DNA of 21,868 bases from IMG/VR virus record IMGVR_UViG_3300045999_007641, positions 1 to 21,868 of that record; one strand, written 5' to 3'. The position numbers were made by a program, and so were the translations under genes. This stretch comes from a virus. Below are positions 1,353 to 14,152 of the stretch, piece by piece; within the stretch, counting starts at the first letter, position 1; every line of letters starts with the position of its first letter. The notes under the pieces were generated by a model that made no database searches, was not told the DNA's origin, and was given only the letters and a program-made list of their open reading frames with translations.

Positions 1353-2703
1353 TATTAATAATAACACATCTACCCGAGATGTGATCATACATGAACTTTC
1401 GATCATCAATTCTCTTGGTGAAATTAAAGACATAACAAGTCTGTTTAATGTCATAAACATATATGAAGATGTGTTTATGCCTGTTGTGAGCGGATCAATT
1501 CAATTGATTGATGGCGTTGACTTGTTTTCTAGTATGGGATTGCATGGCAACGAGTATCTTTACATTTCATTCAGTCGCCCAGGACAAAGTGCCTCTGACC
1601 AAAAATACAAAAGAACATTTCGAATCTATAAAGCAACCGAACGAAAGCCTGCAGGCAAAACTCAAGCGCAATCGTACGTGCTACACTTTTGTTCTGAAGA
1701 ATTATTGTTTTCGAATCAACTAACCTTGTCAAGAAAACTTACGGGCAAAAATTCAAGAGACTATGCAGTAAACATTTGCATATACGACCTTAAAGTCAAT
1801 AGAAAAAAACTAAACGTCAACAACTTTGAGAATTCATTTGGCTCAACAAACTTTATGCTTACCAGATATAAACCGCTGGAAGCACTTGAGTATCTTGCAT
1901 CTCAATCTTATAATGAAAACGAATCCACGTTTATGTTCTTTGAGAATAAGGATGGATTCAATTTTATTTCTCTTGAAGGTTTGTTTAAACGTGAAGTCAT
2001 AACAAAACTAAACTTCAACACCGCTAAATTAACACAAGAGCAAAGCACTGCTCCATTTGCAAATGCGAATGATATTAATGACTTCCGCTTCAATACCAGC
2101 TTTGATGTGTTATCAAACACAAAAAATTCTGCATACAATGGTAGACTATTCACACTCGATTTAATTACGCAAAAATATAAAAAGAGCGATTACTCTTTGG
2201 TTAATTCATTTAACAAAAGAATAATGATGGATGGATTCTTTCCTCTGAACAACGCAAAGAATAGAAACGAGAAAGCAATCTATGAAGAATATGAGACTCA
2301 GATAGATTATTGGCTCACAAATAAAGGGCAGACAAACAATCCGTACTTTATTTCAAAGGGATTTAAAATTGTGGAGACTGGAGTTGAAAAGACACTAATG
2401 CAAAGAAGAGTCCAGTTAAATCTTCTGCGCAGCACAGAATTGAATTGTATCGTTCCAGGCAATCCGTTTTACTCAGCTGGCTATCTCGTTGAATTTGATA
2501 TGCCAGCCTTCACGCCTAGCACAGAGGGTGAGCGAACAATTGATCCATATCATTCTGGTAAATATCTAATCACTGCAGTTCGTCATACAATCACACCTTC
2601 TGATGGCTTACAAACAGTATTGACATTGTGTAAAAACTCTATTGCTGCGCCATTTGATTTGGCTACAGAAAGAGAAGAATTTAGAAAAGCGAGAAATTTC
2701 TAA
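1345..2703 (+). CDS. 27: Baseplate hub ring protein, gp27-like
   Basis: The 452-residue protein lies directly before the spike gene. In T4, gp27 forms the trimeric ring that carries the gp5 spike and adapts it to the tube. The first tube-like domain is visible: beta strands around 'VVSGSIQLIDGVDLFSSMG' and 'GNEYLYISFSRPG', resembling the T4 gp27 stretch where a short beta strand precedes 'MDGNEIIQISV'. A second one lies near the C-terminus ('NCIVPGNPFYSAGYLVEFDM', 'YLITAVRHTITPSDGLQTVL'), matching the end of T4 gp27. It is longer than T4 gp27 (391 residues); the extra length lies mostly in the middle. The start ATG overlaps the gp53 stop (ATGGCTGA). The assignment rests on this domain pattern plus neighbours. 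Confidence 0.78.
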   Translation: MADINNNTSTRDVIIHELSIINSLGEIKDITSLFNVINIYEDVFMPVVSGSIQLIDGVDLFSSMGLHGNEYLYISFSRPGQSASDQKYKRTFRIYKATERKPAGKTQAQSYVLHFCSEELLFSNQLTLSRKLTGKNSRDYAVNICIYDLKVNRKKLNVNNFENSFGSTNFMLTRYKPLEALEYLASQSYNENESTFMFFENKDGFNFISLEGLFKREVITKLNFNTAKLTQEQSTAPFANANDINDFRFNTSFDVLSNTKNSAYNGRLFTLDLITQKYKKSDYSLVNSFNKRIMMDGFFPLNNAKNRNEKAIYEEYETQIDYWLTNKGQTNNPYFISKGFKIVETGVEKTLMQRRVQLNLLRSTELNCIVPGNPFYSAGYLVEFDMPAFTPSTEGERTIDPYHSGKYLITAVRHTITPSDGLQTVLTLCKNSIAAPFDLATEREEFRKARNF

Positions 2704-4298
2704 TGGATCATAATTTTTTAGGATTAGGAAATTTTGTTTGGTGGTTTGGGATCGTAGAAAACAGATTAGATCCACTTGAACTTGGTCGTTGCCAGGTTCG
2801 TTGTTTTGGTTGGCACACAGAAGATATCAATCAAATTCCAATTCCTGATCTTCCATGGGCGCATCCAATTATACCATATGGCATGAAAGCAGTGCAACCT
2901 CCACCAGAGGGAACAATGGTATTTGGATTTTTCGCAGATGGTAAGGAAGGACAATATCCAATCATCATGGGAACTGTTCCAGGTATTCCCGAAGAGTTGC
3001 GCGATAATAATCTTGGATTCACAGATCCGTATACAGAAGATGAAAAAGCATCGCAAGGATTCCCAAAAAAGATTAAAGAAGCATCGATCAAACGCGATGG
3101 TCGTGGCATTCAAATCAAAGAAGATGTTGCAAAACGAAATCCATCAAACTTAAATGAGCCAACAGTCTCTAGACTTGCTCGACCAGTTCGTGGCGAACAA
3201 GATGGAGTGTATGATGGTATTGACTCTGCTTCTATCGCAAATACAACAATTGACATTCAGCGTAAAACAAGAATTCCAAACATCATCACGGCAGACGGTG
3301 GAAGAACATGGGATGAGCCATATCCATCTTACAATGCTCAATATCCATTCAATAATGTGACTGAGACTGAATCTGGTCATGCTTTTGAAATGGACGATAC
3401 AAAGGGATATGAGAGAGTTCAATTGTCTCATAGAACTGGTTCGACTCTTGAATTTTTGCCAGAAGGGCATACAAAGATTAAATCACAAAAGAGTCGCTAT
3501 GATGTGACGATGGGCGACCACAGAAGTTACGTCAATGGTCAGAAAGTAGAAACAGTCGATTCAGATATGTTTCTTCGTGTGAATGGTAAACTTCGAATTG
3601 AATGTGCTGATCTTGAAATTATATCAGCAGATAAAATTCAAATGTCTTCGACGAGCGATACAAATGTTAGAGCGGGCAGAGCAATGAATCTTGGTGCTCT
3701 GCAAACTTTCTTGAGTGGACTTGATGTGAATATTTCCGCAACAAATATGGCAAAGATGTATGGTGGCTTCCAGAGCGTTGTGAAGAGTTCTGGTGTTGCT
3801 TCAATGGGTGGCTCTTTGACTCACGTCTCTGGTGGTGTTCTAGAACTCATCACTCAATTGCTTCTCACTTCAGGTATTCAAGATCTAAATTCAAATATAC
3901 CTGCAGTCGGAAAGGTTGGTCCAACTGCTGATTTCGCAAAAGCCCCAGATATGAAGGGCGCAGCTGAATTGACTCGAGTTCAGGCTGCAGCGCAAGTTCC
4001 AAAAACCGATATCTTCTCTAAATTGCAAGAAGAACGAGAGAAGGAAGCCTCTGTCAATAGCGCAACTGTTGTTGAAGGCACTAAAGTTACACTACCTTCA
4101 ACAACTGGAGCAAACGTCAGCGCGATTATTGATGCGAATAATACAGTTAAAGTTGATGTCACAATTCCAACTAATGAATTAGAAGTGACTGCCCAAGAAC
4201 CTGTGATCATAACAGGATTCGAAGAAAGTTCATCTCAAAGAGAACCAGAACCAGACTCAAGTGGATTTAAGGGTGCTGATGACACCTCTGGATTCTGA
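2703..4298 (+). CDS. 5: Baseplate central spike, gp5-like, without lysozyme domain
   Basis: The 531-residue protein is the trimeric membrane-puncturing spike at the tail tip. Residues about 8-100 are the OB-fold domain ('VWWFGIVENRLDPLELGRCQ', 'PWAHPIIPYG', 'PPPEGTMVFGFFADG', 'YPIIMGTVPGIPEE'). A polar linker (about 105-200) follows. From about 236 to 325 come short alternating beta repeats ('ERVQLSHRTGSTLEFLPEG', 'SRYDVTMGDHRSYVNGQ', 'MFLRVNGKLRIECADLEI') typical of the gp5 C-terminal/VgrG beta-helix. T4 gp5 has a lysozyme domain between these parts; here only the linker is present and no lysozyme-like segment is seen. Residues 330-531 are Ala/Ser/Thr-rich and end in a Glu/Asp/Ser-rich tail. 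The ATG overlaps the previous TAA by one base (TAATG); the binding site is weak, so translation is probably coupled. Confidence 0.85.
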   Translation: MDHNFLGLGNFVWWFGIVENRLDPLELGRCQVRCFGWHTEDINQIPIPDLPWAHPIIPYGMKAVQPPPEGTMVFGFFADGKEGQYPIIMGTVPGIPEELRDNNLGFTDPYTEDEKASQGFPKKIKEASIKRDGRGIQIKEDVAKRNPSNLNEPTVSRLARPVRGEQDGVYDGIDSASIANTTIDIQRKTRIPNIITADGGRTWDEPYPSYNAQYPFNNVTETESGHAFEMDDTKGYERVQLSHRTGSTLEFLPEGHTKIKSQKSRYDVTMGDHRSYVNGQKVETVDSDMFLRVNGKLRIECADLEIISADKIQMSSTSDTNVRAGRAMNLGALQTFLSGLDVNISATNMAKMYGGFQSVVKSSGVASMGGSLTHVSGGVLELITQLLLTSGIQDLNSNIPAVGKVGPTADFAKAPDMKGAAELTRVQAAAQVPKTDIFSKLQEEREKEASVNSATVVEGTKVTLPSTTGANVSAIIDANNTVKVDVTIPTNELEVTAQEPVIITGFEESSSQREPEPDSSGFKGADDTSGF

Positions 4299-4299
4299 G

Positions 4300-4307
4300 G
4301 ATAAATA
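4300..4307 (+). promoter_or_regulatory. Possible T4-type late promoter (GATAAATA)
   Basis: GATAAATA matches 7 of 8 bases of the T4 late promoter box TATAAATA and lies just after the gp5-like stop, in one of the few non-coding gaps. Transcription would begin a few bases downstream, close to the ATG at 4316, which would leave almost no leader for that start. Single 7/8 matches are expected by chance in AT-rich DNA, so this is only a candidate. Confidence 0.35.
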
Positions 4308-4315
4308 CACTCTAT

Positions 4316-4501
4316 ATGTGCATTAAACGAAAAGATATTAACGAGTACAATTTGATCATGAGTAAGATGAGCAAGCACGAACACTTATCAAATTCAGATA
4401 AAGAATTCATGCTCGAGCATGGACTTAAGCAAAAGTACGATTCATATGTTCTTTTATTAGATTTAAAAGAACGCTTTTATGGGAGTAATGTGTCTTCCTA
4501 G
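4316..4501 (+). CDS. Small hypothetical protein (61 aa)
   Basis: I do not recognise this protein. It is short, highly charged (many Lys, Glu, Asp) and probably helical, with no membrane segment or known motif. It fills the gap between the spike gene and the 675-residue gene, and there is no competing ORF there. GAGG at 4297-4300 is about 15 bases before the ATG at 4316, longer than ideal; an in-frame ATG at 4358 (MSKMSKHE…) is an alternative start. Its last 14 bases overlap the disputed start region of the next gene, so it may also have a translational coupling role. Confidence 0.5.
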   Translation: MCIKRKDINEYNLIMSKMSKHEHLSNSDKEFMLEHGLKQKYDSYVLLLDLKERFYGSNVSS

Positions 4502-4512
4502 GTAAAATTATA
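4481..4512 (+). promoter_or_regulatory. Unusual translation-start region of the 675-aa gene
   Basis: The downstream ORF is open back to the TAA at 4486-4488 but contains no ATG or GTG before 4579. TAGGTA at 4499-4504 copies the binding site before the genes at 14168 and 18122, and it is followed in frame by ATT (4507) and ATA (4510). Alternatively, ATG at 4488 reads M-C-L-P, then a rare AGG codon and TAA; a +1 slip on CCT-A at AGG would enter the long frame as M-C-L-P-G-K-I-I. The sequence shows the options but does not decide between them. Confidence 0.4.
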
Positions 4513-4539
4513 GGCAAAATTATTAAAATAATTCTCTGT

Positions 4540-6567
4540 TTGATCGGAGGATTACCGCTTCTTCAGACCTTGGCAATCATGTTTACAGGGAAGCCCATTC
4601 CATTTGCAAAATTGAAGGGCATGTTTGCAGATACTGCGCTTGGTCAATTCTTAAGTGGGATCAAAAAAGATATAACAAAAGGCATCGATGCAGTAAAAAA
4701 CTTCTTTGCGCAGAATTTTATTAATCCATTAAAGAATGGGCTCAATAGCGAAAACTTTATATCATCTCCTCTTAATGATCTAAATCAAGAGTTAGAATTT
4801 CTTACGGCAAATAATTATGCGGGAATGCAGGCTGCATTACCATTATTATTCTCAAACACAACACCATCAGTTGTAACAGCTCGAAATGAATTGTTAAGTC
4901 GACTTGGTCAAGTAAAAGAACTAAACACCTCATCAAACTTTAAAATTGGACCATTTACGATTGGTGAACTCAATTCAATGGCTGATGAGGCGGATTCTCT
5001 TGCTAGAACACTACAAGAGATGGAACAACACACAGATAATCTTTCTGGTTTAGGTGGCGCTCAAGTAAAGTTTAGGCTTGAGAGAATTACTGGAAATTTG
5101 ATTCTACAAAATACTAGTGTCCACATTGTATCGTCAAACGTTGTGTATGCAAATTTGAGTCAACGTGTTTATCCAGTTGTAAATATTGGCGATACCATTG
5201 TTATCGATACGCAAGAAAGAGTTGTCACTGATAAAAAATTCACGCCAACTTTCGATGGCACAGTAAGTATCAATACATCAGCAAATAGTTATAAACTCAC
5301 TACAACTTCCATTGCAACACTAAATCTCGCAAGTTGTAATCTTTCTGTGAATGGTGGTATTGGAGTTCTAGAGACAGGCAATCTTGTCCTTGCGAAGGAT
5401 ATGTTTATTTCAGTGAATGGTGAAGTTCGTCAGGTGAATACAATTAATAGTCTTGGAGACTACTTAACTGTCTATGCGCCATTTGATAATTCAGTTACAG
5501 GTTCGCTTCTCCTTAAAGAAACTTCCTTTAATGTAAACTCAGCATTTACAACCACAAATGAGGAGTTGATTAGAGTTAAGACCTCATTTGTAGCAAATTC
5601 TACTTGTTTAGATAATGTGATCACTGGGCAAGGAACAACATTCACTTCACAACTTCAACCAAATAACAAGATAATCTATGATAGCAAAGAATATATTGTC
5701 AAATCAGTAACAAATACTACAATTGAAGTTGAAGACGATTGGTTAAGATACACAGTAAACTTTCCAATATTTAAGGTTGTTGAGGAAGTTCCATTTCTTG
5801 ATTTGACTGAAGACTTGGTTGATCCAGATGGAATCTTGACAGCATTCACTCTTCCTGGGCAAATAATGGGTGATGAGAACGTTCTTGTGGGTCTAACCAC
5901 GAAAGTTCGAAGAGCAAATGGAATTTACCAATCTGTAAGTGCATCAAAACCAACAGATGCAGCACAGGCTCTATTCCAAAAAGAGTTGATGCGCCGAACT
6001 AAAGAAATATTAACTCAAATGAAGTATGATTTGCGTAATGATGCAATTCGAGGATTAGCATCAACAACACTTGTTCAACGAATTAATGAAACAGAAACGC
6101 GAATCTTAAACATTAAAAATGATATAAAAAATGTTGTTGAACAAGATATCGCTGTGCTAAATCAAGTTAAAGGCATCGTGAAGGGAATGATTAAGTTATT
6201 CTCTATGTCTTGCTCTAAGAAAAAGCGAAAAGACGAAGGTCGCAAAACAGATTCAGATGATTATCTAGATCTTATTCTACAACCAAACCCAGATAGACAG
6301 GGTTGCGATGCAACAGGTAGTGATTTTATCGAAATTCTCGATGATTTTGATAAAGAATATAACGATCCAGATGTCTCATCGAACAATACTCCAACAGTAG
6401 ACACCACAATCCCAACCACTGATCTATTCGATGGATTGGATGGCATTACTGGTCCATTCCCACGACAGCCAATTGGTCCAGCTGGTGGAGATAATACTGG
6501 TGGTGACGTTGATGATCAAGATCCAGATGTGAATGTTCCAGAAGATCCATGTGCAAAACCTTGCTAA
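4540..6567 (+). CDS. Large virion protein of unknown function between spike and gp25
   Basis: I do not recognise the family. The TTG at 4540 is used only as a minimal start: it has no binding site before it, and the frame continues upstream with a plausible hydrophobic sequence (GKIIGKIIKIILCLIGG) running into 'LPLLQTLAIMF', which could be a membrane segment or amphipathic helix. Residues (from TTG) about 60-165 are helical. About 193-420 hold three copies of a small beta module with a 'GDTIVIDTQERVV' pattern, shared with other baseplate proteins here. About 474-560 are helical and coiled-coil-like. A basic patch (CSKKKRKDEGRK) and an acidic, Pro/Gly-rich tail ending 'EDPCAKPC' follow. Its position between gp5 and gp25 suggests a baseplate structural protein, perhaps at the hub or tail tip; that is inference. 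Confidence 0.75.
   Translation: MIGGLPLLQTLAIMFTGKPIPFAKLKGMFADTALGQFLSGIKKDITKGIDAVKNFFAQNFINPLKNGLNSENFISSPLNDLNQELEFLTANNYAGMQAALPLLFSNTTPSVVTARNELLSRLGQVKELNTSSNFKIGPFTIGELNSMADEADSLARTLQEMEQHTDNLSGLGGAQVKFRLERITGNLILQNTSVHIVSSNVVYANLSQRVYPVVNIGDTIVIDTQERVVTDKKFTPTFDGTVSINTSANSYKLTTTSIATLNLASCNLSVNGGIGVLETGNLVLAKDMFISVNGEVRQVNTINSLGDYLTVYAPFDNSVTGSLLLKETSFNVNSAFTTTNEELIRVKTSFVANSTCLDNVITGQGTTFTSQLQPNNKIIYDSKEYIVKSVTNTTIEVEDDWLRYTVNFPIFKVVEEVPFLDLTEDLVDPDGILTAFTLPGQIMGDENVLVGLTTKVRRANGIYQSVSASKPTDAAQALFQKELMRRTKEILTQMKYDLRNDAIRGLASTTLVQRINETETRILNIKNDIKNVVEQDIAVLNQVKGIVKGMIKLFSMSCSKKKRKDEGRKTDSDDYLDLILQPNPDRQGCDATGSDFIEILDDFDKEYNDPDVSSNNTPTVDTTIPTTDLFDGLDGITGPFPRQPIGPAGGDNTGGDVDDQDPDVNVPEDPCAKPC
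5119..5793 (+). repeat. Three copies of beta module A in the 675-aa protein
   Basis: Three diverged protein repeats at about 5119-5272, 5347-5519 and 5611-5793 share the order: strand, 'G-D/N-x-I' strand, R/K-x-V strand, then a strand before an aromatic or proline turn (for example 'NIGDTIVIDTQERVV', 'MFISVNGEVRQVNTI', 'NNKIIYDSKEYIVKSV'). The similarity is at protein level only. The boundaries are approximate. Confidence 0.5.
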
Positions 6568-6576
6568 ATATAAAAA
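6564..6576 (+). promoter_or_regulatory. Possible late promoter before gp25 (CTAAATATAAAAA)
   Basis: CTAAATA at 6564-6570 overlaps TATAAAAA at 6569-6576 (7 of 8 bases of the T4 late box). It lies at the stop of the previous gene, 15-28 bases before the gp25 ATG at 6592. The placement before a conserved baseplate gene supports a promoter, but the AT-richness makes chance matches likely. Confidence 0.35.
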
Positions 6577-6591
6577 AATAGTAGGTTGCAA

Positions 6592-6984
6592 ATGCCTTTA
6601 GAAGTAAGAACATATAAAGATTTAGATTTAAATTTCAGAGCGCATCCAGTAACAAAGGACGTCGTGAAGCGCACAGGAAATGCAGCGATCATCGGCGCAC
6701 TGAGAAATCTAATTCTCACAAATCTGTATGAAAAACCATTTCAACCGACGTTTGGTTCTCGAATTCGCGGTCTGCTCTTCGAAGATGTCTCGTTTATTAC
6801 TGCGAACATGCTTCAATCGGAGATTCAAACTGTAATTACTAACTTCGAACCTCGTGTTGGCATTGATGCAATTCGAGTTGAGGCTCAACCAGAAGAAAAT
6901 CGTTATGCGGTGACTCTTAGATTTTATATTAATAACCTAGAAGACCCTGTAACAATAAATCTATTTCTCGAGAAGGTTCGCTGA
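6592..6984 (+). CDS. 25: Baseplate wedge subunit gp25
   Basis: The 130-residue protein is close to T4 gp25 (132 residues), the small wedge protein that joins the sheath to the baseplate and is conserved across contractile injection systems. Visible features are 'YKDLDLNFRAHPVTKDVVKR', 'ALRNLILTNLYEKPFQPTFG' followed by 'SRIRGLLFED', and the family's EPR motif in 'NFEPRVGIDAIRVEAQ'. The chosen start is ATG 6592: TAGGT at 6582-6586 sits six bases before it, whereas the TTG two codons earlier (6586) would overlap that site. The gene ends in a TGATG overlap with gp6. Confidence 0.93.
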   Translation: MPLEVRTYKDLDLNFRAHPVTKDVVKRTGNAAIIGALRNLILTNLYEKPFQPTFGSRIRGLLFEDVSFITANMLQSEIQTVITNFEPRVGIDAIRVEAQPEENRYAVTLRFYINNLEDPVTINLFLEKVR

Positions 6985-12529: not shown

Positions 12530-14152
12530 ATGGCTTCAATTATCACAAAAGATTTTGGAATTGCAAACGCTATCAATTTTGAGAAAATGATTTCATTGCC
12601 ATTAGCGAATGTCTACATTATGATGGGCAGATCAATTCCTTGGGCTAACTCTTCAAATTCTGAATTATTCGATGACTCGTTAGTTCCAGATCCATATGAC
12701 ACCGTAGAGACAAAAAACCAAATTTCTCGCGATGCTTTAGTCATGGTGAAGATCACAAGTAACGATGTTCAGCCAGTGATTCCGAGAGTAGACTGGGCAA
12801 ACACAGAAGTCTACGTCGCATATGATCATACTTTAAATACATTTGCAAAATCAATAGAAACAAAATACAATGGGAATGTGAACGTTTCTATCAGTTCACT
12901 TCAAACTTTAAATTCGGCGACAATAAATCTTGCTTCTGTTAATCCAGTATTGACTGTCGGCTCATTGATTCGCGTTGGTGAGGAAATTAAAGAAGTTTGT
13001 GATATTAATGCTTCTGGCGCATCATTAACTGTTAATACGCCGTTTGCGTCAGCATATACTAATGCAAATTTATATAAAGTTGTAACAAGCACAACTCAAT
13101 ATGCGAATAAGTTTTATGTTCGCAACATGTCTGATCAAGTGTTTAAGTGTATGGATAATAATGGCGGGGCAAATTCCACTGTTATGCCAGAAATTACTCT
13201 TGGTGGACAATTACCAGAAAATCCATTTATCGAAACTTCAGATGGATATAAATGGAAGTATATGTACACAATCCCTAGTGGATTGAAGAATAAATTCTTT
13301 ACAGACAAATACATGCCTGTAATTCGCGAACCAATTGTTTTTGAAAATGCAGAAAATGGTCGCATCGACATCATTCAAATCGTAGATGGCGGCTCAGGAT
13401 ATTTCTCTGGCGGTTCTGTTACTAACTACGCTGTTGTAGATGTAACAGGCGACGGTGCAAATGCAAACGTGTCTATTGATGTCACGAATGGTGTTATCAC
13501 AAATGTGAACATCATCGATGGCGGCAACACTTACACTACTGCAACAATCACGGTCGATGATACGATTCAAACTCTATCTGGAAACACTGCTGAACTCAGA
13601 GCGGTTATATCCCCAAGATATGGACATGGATTTGATCCAGTAAGAGAACTTGGTGGATCAGATCAAATGGTGAGCGTTGATTTTGAGGGTGATTTAGACG
13701 GAGTCCTTCCAACGCAAGGAGATGGAACTGAAAAGGTTCGTCAAGTTTCAATCATTAAAGATCCAAAACTTGCAAATGGAGTATATGCAACTTCAACAGT
13801 ATATGCAATGTATACTTCGTTGCAAGTTTCTAATCCGCCTGTAGATTTTTCACACGGATCTATCGTATATGCTGGATCTAGTTTCGAAACTTCGACCTTC
13901 AATGCGCGTGTTATCCATTTTGATAATAACACTAATGTATTGTATATCAATCGCATTGTCGGAAATGTTGCTCAAGTTGTATCAGAAACGATTTATGAGA
14001 AAGATAATCCATCAGCAGCGGCTAGAATATTTTCTATCACCGAACCCGATATAAATATCTTCAGCGGAGAGGTGTTGTTTATAGAAAACAAATCTCCAAT
14101 TATTCGTTCTCCAAATCAGACAGAAACCGTTAAACTAGTCGTTGAATTTTAA
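12530..14152 (+). CDS. 8: Baseplate wedge subunit gp8, enlarged by two inserted domains
   Basis: The 540-residue protein is clearly gp8-like. Motifs shared with T4 gp8 (334 residues) occur in order: 'MMGRSIPWANSSNSE' (T4 GRSEPW), 'VIPRVDW' (T4 VIPRRDW), 'SDGYKWKYMYTIPSG' (T4 GDGYVWEYLFEIP), 'VRQVSIIKDPKLA' (T4 FRQISIITNP) and 'LFIENKSPIIRSPNQTETVK' (T4 IYMENRPPIIMAMDQTEEIN). The extra 200 residues fall mainly into two blocks: module A at about residues 115-186 and module B at about 277-347. gp8 forms dimers that bind gp7 and gp10 in T4 wedges. The gene begins 3 nt after the previous stop; its binding site is weak (CGGA). Confidence 0.93.
   Translation: MASIITKDFGIANAINFEKMISLPLANVYIMMGRSIPWANSSNSELFDDSLVPDPYDTVETKNQISRDALVMVKITSNDVQPVIPRVDWANTEVYVAYDHTLNTFAKSIETKYNGNVNVSISSLQTLNSATINLASVNPVLTVGSLIRVGEEIKEVCDINASGASLTVNTPFASAYTNANLYKVVTSTTQYANKFYVRNMSDQVFKCMDNNGGANSTVMPEITLGGQLPENPFIETSDGYKWKYMYTIPSGLKNKFFTDKYMPVIREPIVFENAENGRIDIIQIVDGGSGYFSGGSVTNYAVVDVTGDGANANVSIDVTNGVITNVNIIDGGNTYTTATITVDDTIQTLSGNTAELRAVISPRYGHGFDPVRELGGSDQMVSVDFEGDLDGVLPTQGDGTEKVRQVSIIKDPKLANGVYATSTVYAMYTSLQVSNPPVDFSHGSIVYAGSSFETSTFNARVIHFDNNTNVLYINRIVGNVAQVVSETIYEKDNPSAAARIFSITEPDINIFSGEVLFIENKSPIIRSPNQTETVKLVVEF
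12874..13086 (+). repeat. Module A inserted in gp8
   Basis: This segment lies between 'VIPRVDWANTEVYVAYDHT' and 'FYVRNMSDQVFKCMDNNGG', which are nearly adjacent in T4 gp8. Its product ('PVLTVGSLIRVGEEIKEV…SLTVNTPFASAYTNANLYKV') matches module A copies in the gp7 counterpart and the 1312-residue protein. Confidence 0.7.
13358..13570 (+). repeat. Module B (GSGY) inserted in gp8
   Basis: This segment lies between 'KNKFFTDKYMPVI' and 'KVRQVSIIKDPKL'. Its product has two half-repeats: 'IDIIQIVDGGSGYFSGGSV' and 'GVITNVNIIDGGNTYTTATI', with a Gly/Asp/Asn/Ala-rich link between them. T4 gp8 has nothing comparable as far as I can recall its sequence. Confidence 0.7.
14050..14057 (+). promoter_or_regulatory. 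Perfect T4 late-promoter box TATAAATA inside the end of gp8
   Basis: All eight bases match the T4 late consensus TATAAATA. It lies in codons for Asp-Ile-Asn-Ile near the gp8 C-terminus, about 110 bases before the ATG of the 1312-residue gene, a normal place for a T4 late promoter. It could also be a chance product of the AT-rich codons. Confidence 0.4.

Follow-up and report, generated by a model that had tools for sequence, protein, structure and literature searches.

T4 gene 60 and frameshift genes of the prfB and dnaX type offer the closest described parallels to the gene junction analyzed here, which lies immediately upstream of a large phage protein designated X. In gene 60 bypassing, translation picks up the reading frame again with no start codon, the stop of the upstream ORF lies nearby and a Shine-Dalgarno-like stretch sits just 5' of the resumption codon; the X junction shares these features yet has no non-coding gap, no matched take-off and landing codon across lineages and no common stem-loop. 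Shine-Dalgarno-stimulated frameshifting of the prfB and dnaX type likewise combines overlapping frames, an upstream Shine-Dalgarno and a nearby stop, whereas X shows no conserved slippery heptamer or shift-prone codon. A third parallel is the coat/lysis termination-reinitiation of RNA phage GA, where the relevant passages of PMC9955659 describe an overlap, a stop near the start and a role for the Shine-Dalgarno; that junction uses AUG, while the X junction carries no start codon. The same passages indicate that translation can resume close to a stop without any start codon if ribosomes are not released, as upon loss of RRF (PMC9955659). Our search of the open PMC literature found no account of a junction like that of X, which does not establish it as unpublished.

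The window, that is, the whole 21,868-nucleotide stretch analyzed (IMG/VR record IMGVR_UViG_3300045999_007641), holds a T4-like baseplate cluster whose genes we take, partly by position and recall, to encode a tube-cap protein (C-terminal part), gp53-like and gp27-like proteins, gp5, a 61-residue ORF, X, gp25, gp6, gp7 and gp8, together with two long ORFs for structural proteins (phrog_358; DUF4815 in the first). All window features described below lie on the + strand. The 675-codon open frame at 4540–6567 in the preliminary description is indeed present between the gp5-like spike (531 residues, phrog_430; 2703–4298) and the gp25-like wedge protein (phrog_261; 6592–6984, ATG at 6592). Its proposed start, a TTG at 4540–4542, does not hold up: the codon is not conserved, being TTA in a 72% relative (L004). 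Inspection of the upstream sequence reveals a frame that is open to 4489, with an in-frame stop at 4486–4488, and that is conserved to about 4492 (VFLGKIIGKIIKIILCLIGGLPLLQ) in all relatives with mostly synonymous DNA change. Because three homologues with a GTG start (L128, L150 and L154) begin at the codon aligned with 4492, we place the start of X there. The protein then comprises about 691 residues (VFLGKIIG to DPCAKPC; 4492–6567, by homologue alignment), and its aligned start position, 4492–4494, reads GTC, which is not a start codon. The earlier N-terminus was therefore 16 residues short, and the missing residues include the amphipathic part (KIIGKIIKIILC).

On present comparisons, X forms a new family whose members all come from uncultured T4-like viruses of bacteria. 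IMG/VR yielded two relatives with a single query, 35 with a three-row alignment and 77 loci with a 19-row alignment in one scan. In total, 55 distinct full-length homologues align end to end at 34–99% identity to window X, which places the frame far beyond chance; across these 55 proteins, conservation is strongest in the N-terminal IxK..ILCLIGGxPLLQ and the C-terminal PCxxPC. A tblastn search of 50,697 named phage records returned no match to window X at E 0.01, nor any to the X of L092 even at E 1, and no homologues were found in GTDB genomes. Window X has no PHROG match at E up to 1 and a single sub-threshold Pfam match, none being significant, while the 55 members show only scattered weak matches to PHROG and Pfam (best 7.4e-4). 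The best E in a PDB profile search was 0.13, and Rfam gave 0 matches. A confident assignment of X to scaffolds or chaperones, which would have counted against an earlier guess at a tail-tip or membrane-penetration role, did not emerge from the Pfam, PHROG or PDB profiles. Named relatives selected by gp6 (Melnitz-3, P-SSM4, Syn1 and BUCT-ZZ01) carry only small proteins between gp5 and gp25, where the region before gp25 was taken if no gp5 was annotated in the stretch.

The preliminary description had not recognized what is the most unusual feature of this gene, a conserved absence of a start codon. The 139 loci reduce to 47 distinct junction sequences, in which the codon at the aligned start is GTC (29), GCT (13), GTG (3), GCC (1) or GCG (1). 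Forty-three of the 47 have GTC, GCT or GCC with no start codon there or before, and 41 contain no ATG, GTG or TTG anywhere from the upstream in-frame stop to the invariant Cys. Canonical codons occur as the GTG of L128, L150 and L154, as a TTG one codon past the aligned position in L020 and as a TTG within the conserved segment in L080 and L086. As a control, seven neighboring genes have ATG at the aligned start in 246 of 248 cases (gp53 30/30, gp27 34/34, gp5 38/40, gp25 45/45, gp6 45/45, gp7 34/34, gp8 20/20), versus no start codon in 42 of 46 cases when the same test is applied to X. In gp5 of L096 and L119, a canonical start is lacking within 12 codons of the aligned position. Sequencing error was rejected as a cause, since the same state recurs in many contigs from different metagenomes.

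In the window, a Shine-Dalgarno-like GGAG (inside GGGAG; 4482–4485) lies 6 nt 5' of GTC 4492, and matches of 4–6 nt occur at an aligned spacing of 4–6 in 44 of the 47 junctions, of 8 in two, and not at all in one (L020). Fourfold identity over the first 20 codons of X is 0.53 versus 0.36 overall, a low synonymous drift that fits a translation-start region. In a tree of 55 rows, L094 (GCT) is the sister of the GTG clade (100/97), which starred branches place inside the start-less rows; GCN codons appear at several places (L091, L094, L013, L020 and the L047-type group). Given this nesting, the start-less state looks old and the canonical codons look regained, the direction being read from a midpoint root. 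The conserved absence suggests a functional role; in that case, it would amount to a novel recoding element or else to bacterial initiation free of a start codon. In most of these phages, a gene finder that insists on a start codon would call X too short and so hide its most conserved segment.

Directly 5' of X lies a small ORF beginning Met-Cys (the MC ORF), which in the window spans 4316–4501 (61 residues, TAG at 4499–4501) and overlaps X by 10 nt in another frame. Such an ORF is present in 46 of 47 junctions, the 47th (L128) being cut; in L100 its start was assigned too far downstream by the script. Its only invariant residues are M1 and C2 (35 rows), it is otherwise fast evolving, and its PHROG matches are weak and scattered. 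Its frame relative to X is identical in all 46 junctions where it is found, and 45 of these have its stop shortly after the X start position. The remaining one is L086, whose MC ORF (2849–2986) ends GAG GAG TAA before the overlap; this sole such junction comes from one contig and may be a variant or an error. L128, which has GTG at the X start, carries its upstream ORF (truncated at the 5' end) in the other frame, and this combination indicates that X can be a separate, unfused protein. In L074 to L076, the codon that precedes the start position is TGT, CGT or AGT, a variation that is silent in the MC frame (ATT, ATC, ATA) and would change the residue in the X frame. That the variation is silent in the MC frame alone implies that X-frame translation probably begins after that base. 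The window overlap reads GTG TCT TCC TAG and is not slippery, and that of L004 contains T_TTA_AAA.

Late-promoter-like elements flank both genes. In the section of PMC2984593 that treats S-PM2, NATAAATA is reported as a late-promoter motif, and the window carries ATAAATA at 4301–4307, 5' of the MC ORF, and CTAAATA at 6564–6570, over the last codon and stop of X and before gp25. Across relatives, 44 of 46 junctions carry [AC]TAAAT no more than 16 nt 5' of the MC ATG, and in 41 of 42 distinct 3' ends of X an NTAAATA element overlaps or follows the final Cys codon and stop. Counted over the window, the motif is no commoner than chance would give; it is the conserved place alone of these putative elements that is notable. 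The downstream element also constrains the last Cys codon. In many relatives, the upstream element touches or overlaps the MC ATG. Where the two abut, late RNA would be predicted from the geometry of T4 late promoters to start at or after that ATG. Analysis of RNA structure did not single out the X start: accessibility there is 0.49 compared with 0.48 at random sites, that is to say, not raised, and mRNA folding of the window region gives a z of -0.88. No stem-loop common to all groups was found. A hairpin predicted in the ILCLIGG codons (window about 4530–4556) occurs in groups A, C and D, or three of five groups, and was rejected as a recoding signal because it is not common to all groups and lies well past the overlap.

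To account for these observations, we propose that the X polypeptide would begin at 4492 on a non-start codon (GTC, or GCT or GCC in relatives), at a position set by the Shine-Dalgarno 5–6 nt upstream. Ribosomes would most likely arrive via termination of the overlapping MC ORF and then be captured by the Shine-Dalgarno, leading to low-level, start-codon-weak re-initiation at X. The start position itself is supported, and we infer the route and the initiating tRNA. Initiation of this kind at 4492, directed by the Shine-Dalgarno and probably coupled to MC termination, forms part of our best explanation, which we hold tentatively and at a little less than an even chance. The canonical Shine-Dalgarno spacing speaks for it, as do the GTG homologues, whose start falls on this very codon, and the changed frame of L128. 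Against it stand the uniform MC frame relative to X, as recoding would require, and the unremarkable accessibility of the start site. Initiation at GUC in E. coli, as reported in the relevant portion of PMC2268962, was obtained with an altered initiator anticodon, which counts against initiation at GTC 4492, and the pairing of GCU or GCC with the normal initiator anticodon is even worse than that of GUC. The 197-kb relative encodes 26 tRNA genes (L229 14187–19801; L230 10269–10343), of which three have the anticodon CAT and none GAC or GGC. The broader claim, that a clade-wide structural gene might be translated by Shine-Dalgarno-set initiation or resumption without any start codon, tolerating GUC, GCU and GCC, is possible but somewhat doubtful. 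If true, a start-codon-free mode would have been kept over deep divergence while the neighboring genes use AUG.

Two other routes into the X frame were weighed against non-start initiation. It is very improbable that X is an ordinary gene with an internal TTG or ATG start at 4540 or later, as the ORF finder output has it, given that TTG 4540 is lost in L004, that no internal start is conserved and that the discarded segment is the best-conserved part of the protein, with mostly synonymous change. A stronger case can be made for X being produced solely as a fusion to the MC ORF, through a frame departure in the overlap (net -1 or +2) or a hop, such that the mature protein would be MC...-X. The directly adjoining MC ORF with its constant relative frame and its stop past the X start would be expected of a fusion, as would the fact that 43 of 47 junctions offer X no start codon up to and including the aligned position; L128, the sole junction in another frame, is one of those with GTG, as though a constraint were lifted there. 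Frameshifting is known to be stimulated by an internal Shine-Dalgarno 5' of the shift site, so the Shine-Dalgarno-like sequence would help a frame change, and the T_TTA_AAA of L004 lies in the overlap. Nevertheless, we judge a fusion unlikely. Inspection by eye of the overlaps of all 47 junctions found no conserved slippery site for -1 programmed frameshifting, no shift site is common to all lineages, the window overlap is not slippery, and matched take-off and landing codons (also by eye) exist for GTG to GTC alone and not for the GCT, GCC or GCG lineages. Furthermore, the MC ORF of L086 stops before the overlap, late RNA may lack the MC ATG in many relatives given the position of the element, a common stem-loop is absent, and common descent of two coding genes also predicts conservation of the frame. 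Specific routes were rejected individually: P-site slippage at the MC stop (re-pairing is possible in some lineages alone), a +2 move from GTG to GTC (fails in the GCT, GCC and GCG lineages), a start on the GTG of the MC frame (which L049 and L094 lack, and whose spacing is short) and a hop from the Cys codon of the MC ORF to that of LCLIGG (conflicts with the conserved segment in between).

An AlphaFold model of X built from the 55-sequence alignment (mean pLDDT 73, pTM 0.69) bears out most of the architecture suggested by the preliminary description. Beta strands occupy residues 192–434 (the beta modules, 5065–5793; block-mean pLDDT mostly 83–93), and this region reaches a pLDDT of 89.8 when modeled separately. 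The long helical region corresponds to helices at residues 497–513 and 524–574, the latter a long helix encoded at 6061–6213. The basic patch is present as SCSKKKRKD, with KKKRK (6217–6231) following a conserved SCS, and so is the acidic tail ending CAKPC (6550–6564), where both Cys and the Pro are invariant in 55 of 55 sequences. The hydrophobic N-terminus was likewise recovered in sequence as an amphipathic/hydrophobic segment of residues 1–32 (4492–4587; ILCLIGGxPLLQ), the best-conserved part of X. Residues 1–45 and 627–686 have a pLDDT below 50, so the tail is modeled at low confidence.

Foldseek searches of the PDB with the X models returned nothing at E<=0.001, and a viral structure library gave 10 matches at E<=0.001 with TM under 0.2, mostly long phage proteins (sheath, tail, fiber or unnamed). 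In VIA-align, the beta region best matched the LKA1 tailspike (Z 9.0, rmsd 4.5, 82 aligned; also Z 8.7); at Z 5–7 came further tail proteins and small, unrelated barrels. Judged from the models, these matches point to a common barrel type, and no specific fold is identified. The X profile recovers its second beta module in window gp8 (12851–13150; E 8e-9), and the module was detected in gp7 or gp8 of seven of 10 X-carrying loci at E <1e-4. The remainder of X is unrelated to these wedge proteins, X is placed elsewhere in the cluster, and no whole-protein family match to gp7/gp8-type proteins appears in Pfam or PHROG. Among sequence evidence, this homology of one module to gp7/gp8 of the same phages is the best argument for a baseplate role, and it leads us to regard X as a baseplate protein.

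The slot that X occupies gives a further indication of its role. Of six X-less loci selected by gp25 (51–54% identity), two (L106 and L111) have a PAAR protein, a spike tip of the T4 gp5.4 kind, between gp5 and gp25. Two others have a 271–274-residue protein without a PHROG match (L101 6147–6962; L110 5526–6350), and L103 and L105 have no extra large gene there. PF05488 was detected in both PAAR-type relatives, but not in the window record or in any of 10 records that carry X, of which one is 197 kb long and the others are fragments. Compared with the PAAR tip, X is about seven times larger and beta-modular, with a hydrophobic N-terminus, and has no PAAR match (PF05488 or phrog_281) in Pfam or PHROG. 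X thus becomes a candidate for the tip or hub of an uncultured T4-like group without a detected PAAR tip. From N- to C-terminus, it joins a conserved hydrophobic segment to beta modules of the wedge type, a long helix and an acidic tail that closes with DPCxxPC. Our best explanation, tentative and just under an even chance as a whole, takes X for a structural baseplate protein that this clade makes late and places at a hub or tip position, with translation beginning on the non-start codon at 4492. X would then be in the virion and close to the spike tip, the latter suggested by gene position, and its N-terminus may contact or enter the host membrane.

The earlier guess at a tail-tip or membrane component was thus reasonable and is supported in part, with a corrected start. 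Synteny, the gp7/gp8 module, the late-promoter-like flanks and the PAAR slot favor its tail or baseplate half, while membrane penetration would be compatible with the data: the first 30 residues are the best-conserved part of X, but their modeled pLDDT is under 50. Could X instead be a non-virion hub assembly factor or chaperone, expressed at low level? T4 uses non-structural hub factors, which provides a precedent, and a catalytic amount would suit a weak start. The beta module shared with wedge proteins, the size and the modular build of X, and the lack of a match to chaperone families in Pfam and PHROG make this quite improbable. A tape measure protein is hardly credible: the size of X is near that of T4 gp29, helices are present and three of 55 members weakly match a PHROG tape-measure family (best 7.4e-4), but the modeled core is beta-rich and not largely helical. 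In addition, the 197-kb relative encodes a better candidate, a 916-residue protein of hub or tape-measure character that carries an SLT transglycosylase domain (E 7.5e-8; L231 8651–11401, - strand), and its location beside a T4_baseplate (gp26-type) gene makes X an unlikely tape measure. This SLT-domain hub protein may also be the seat of the lytic activity that the spike lacks.
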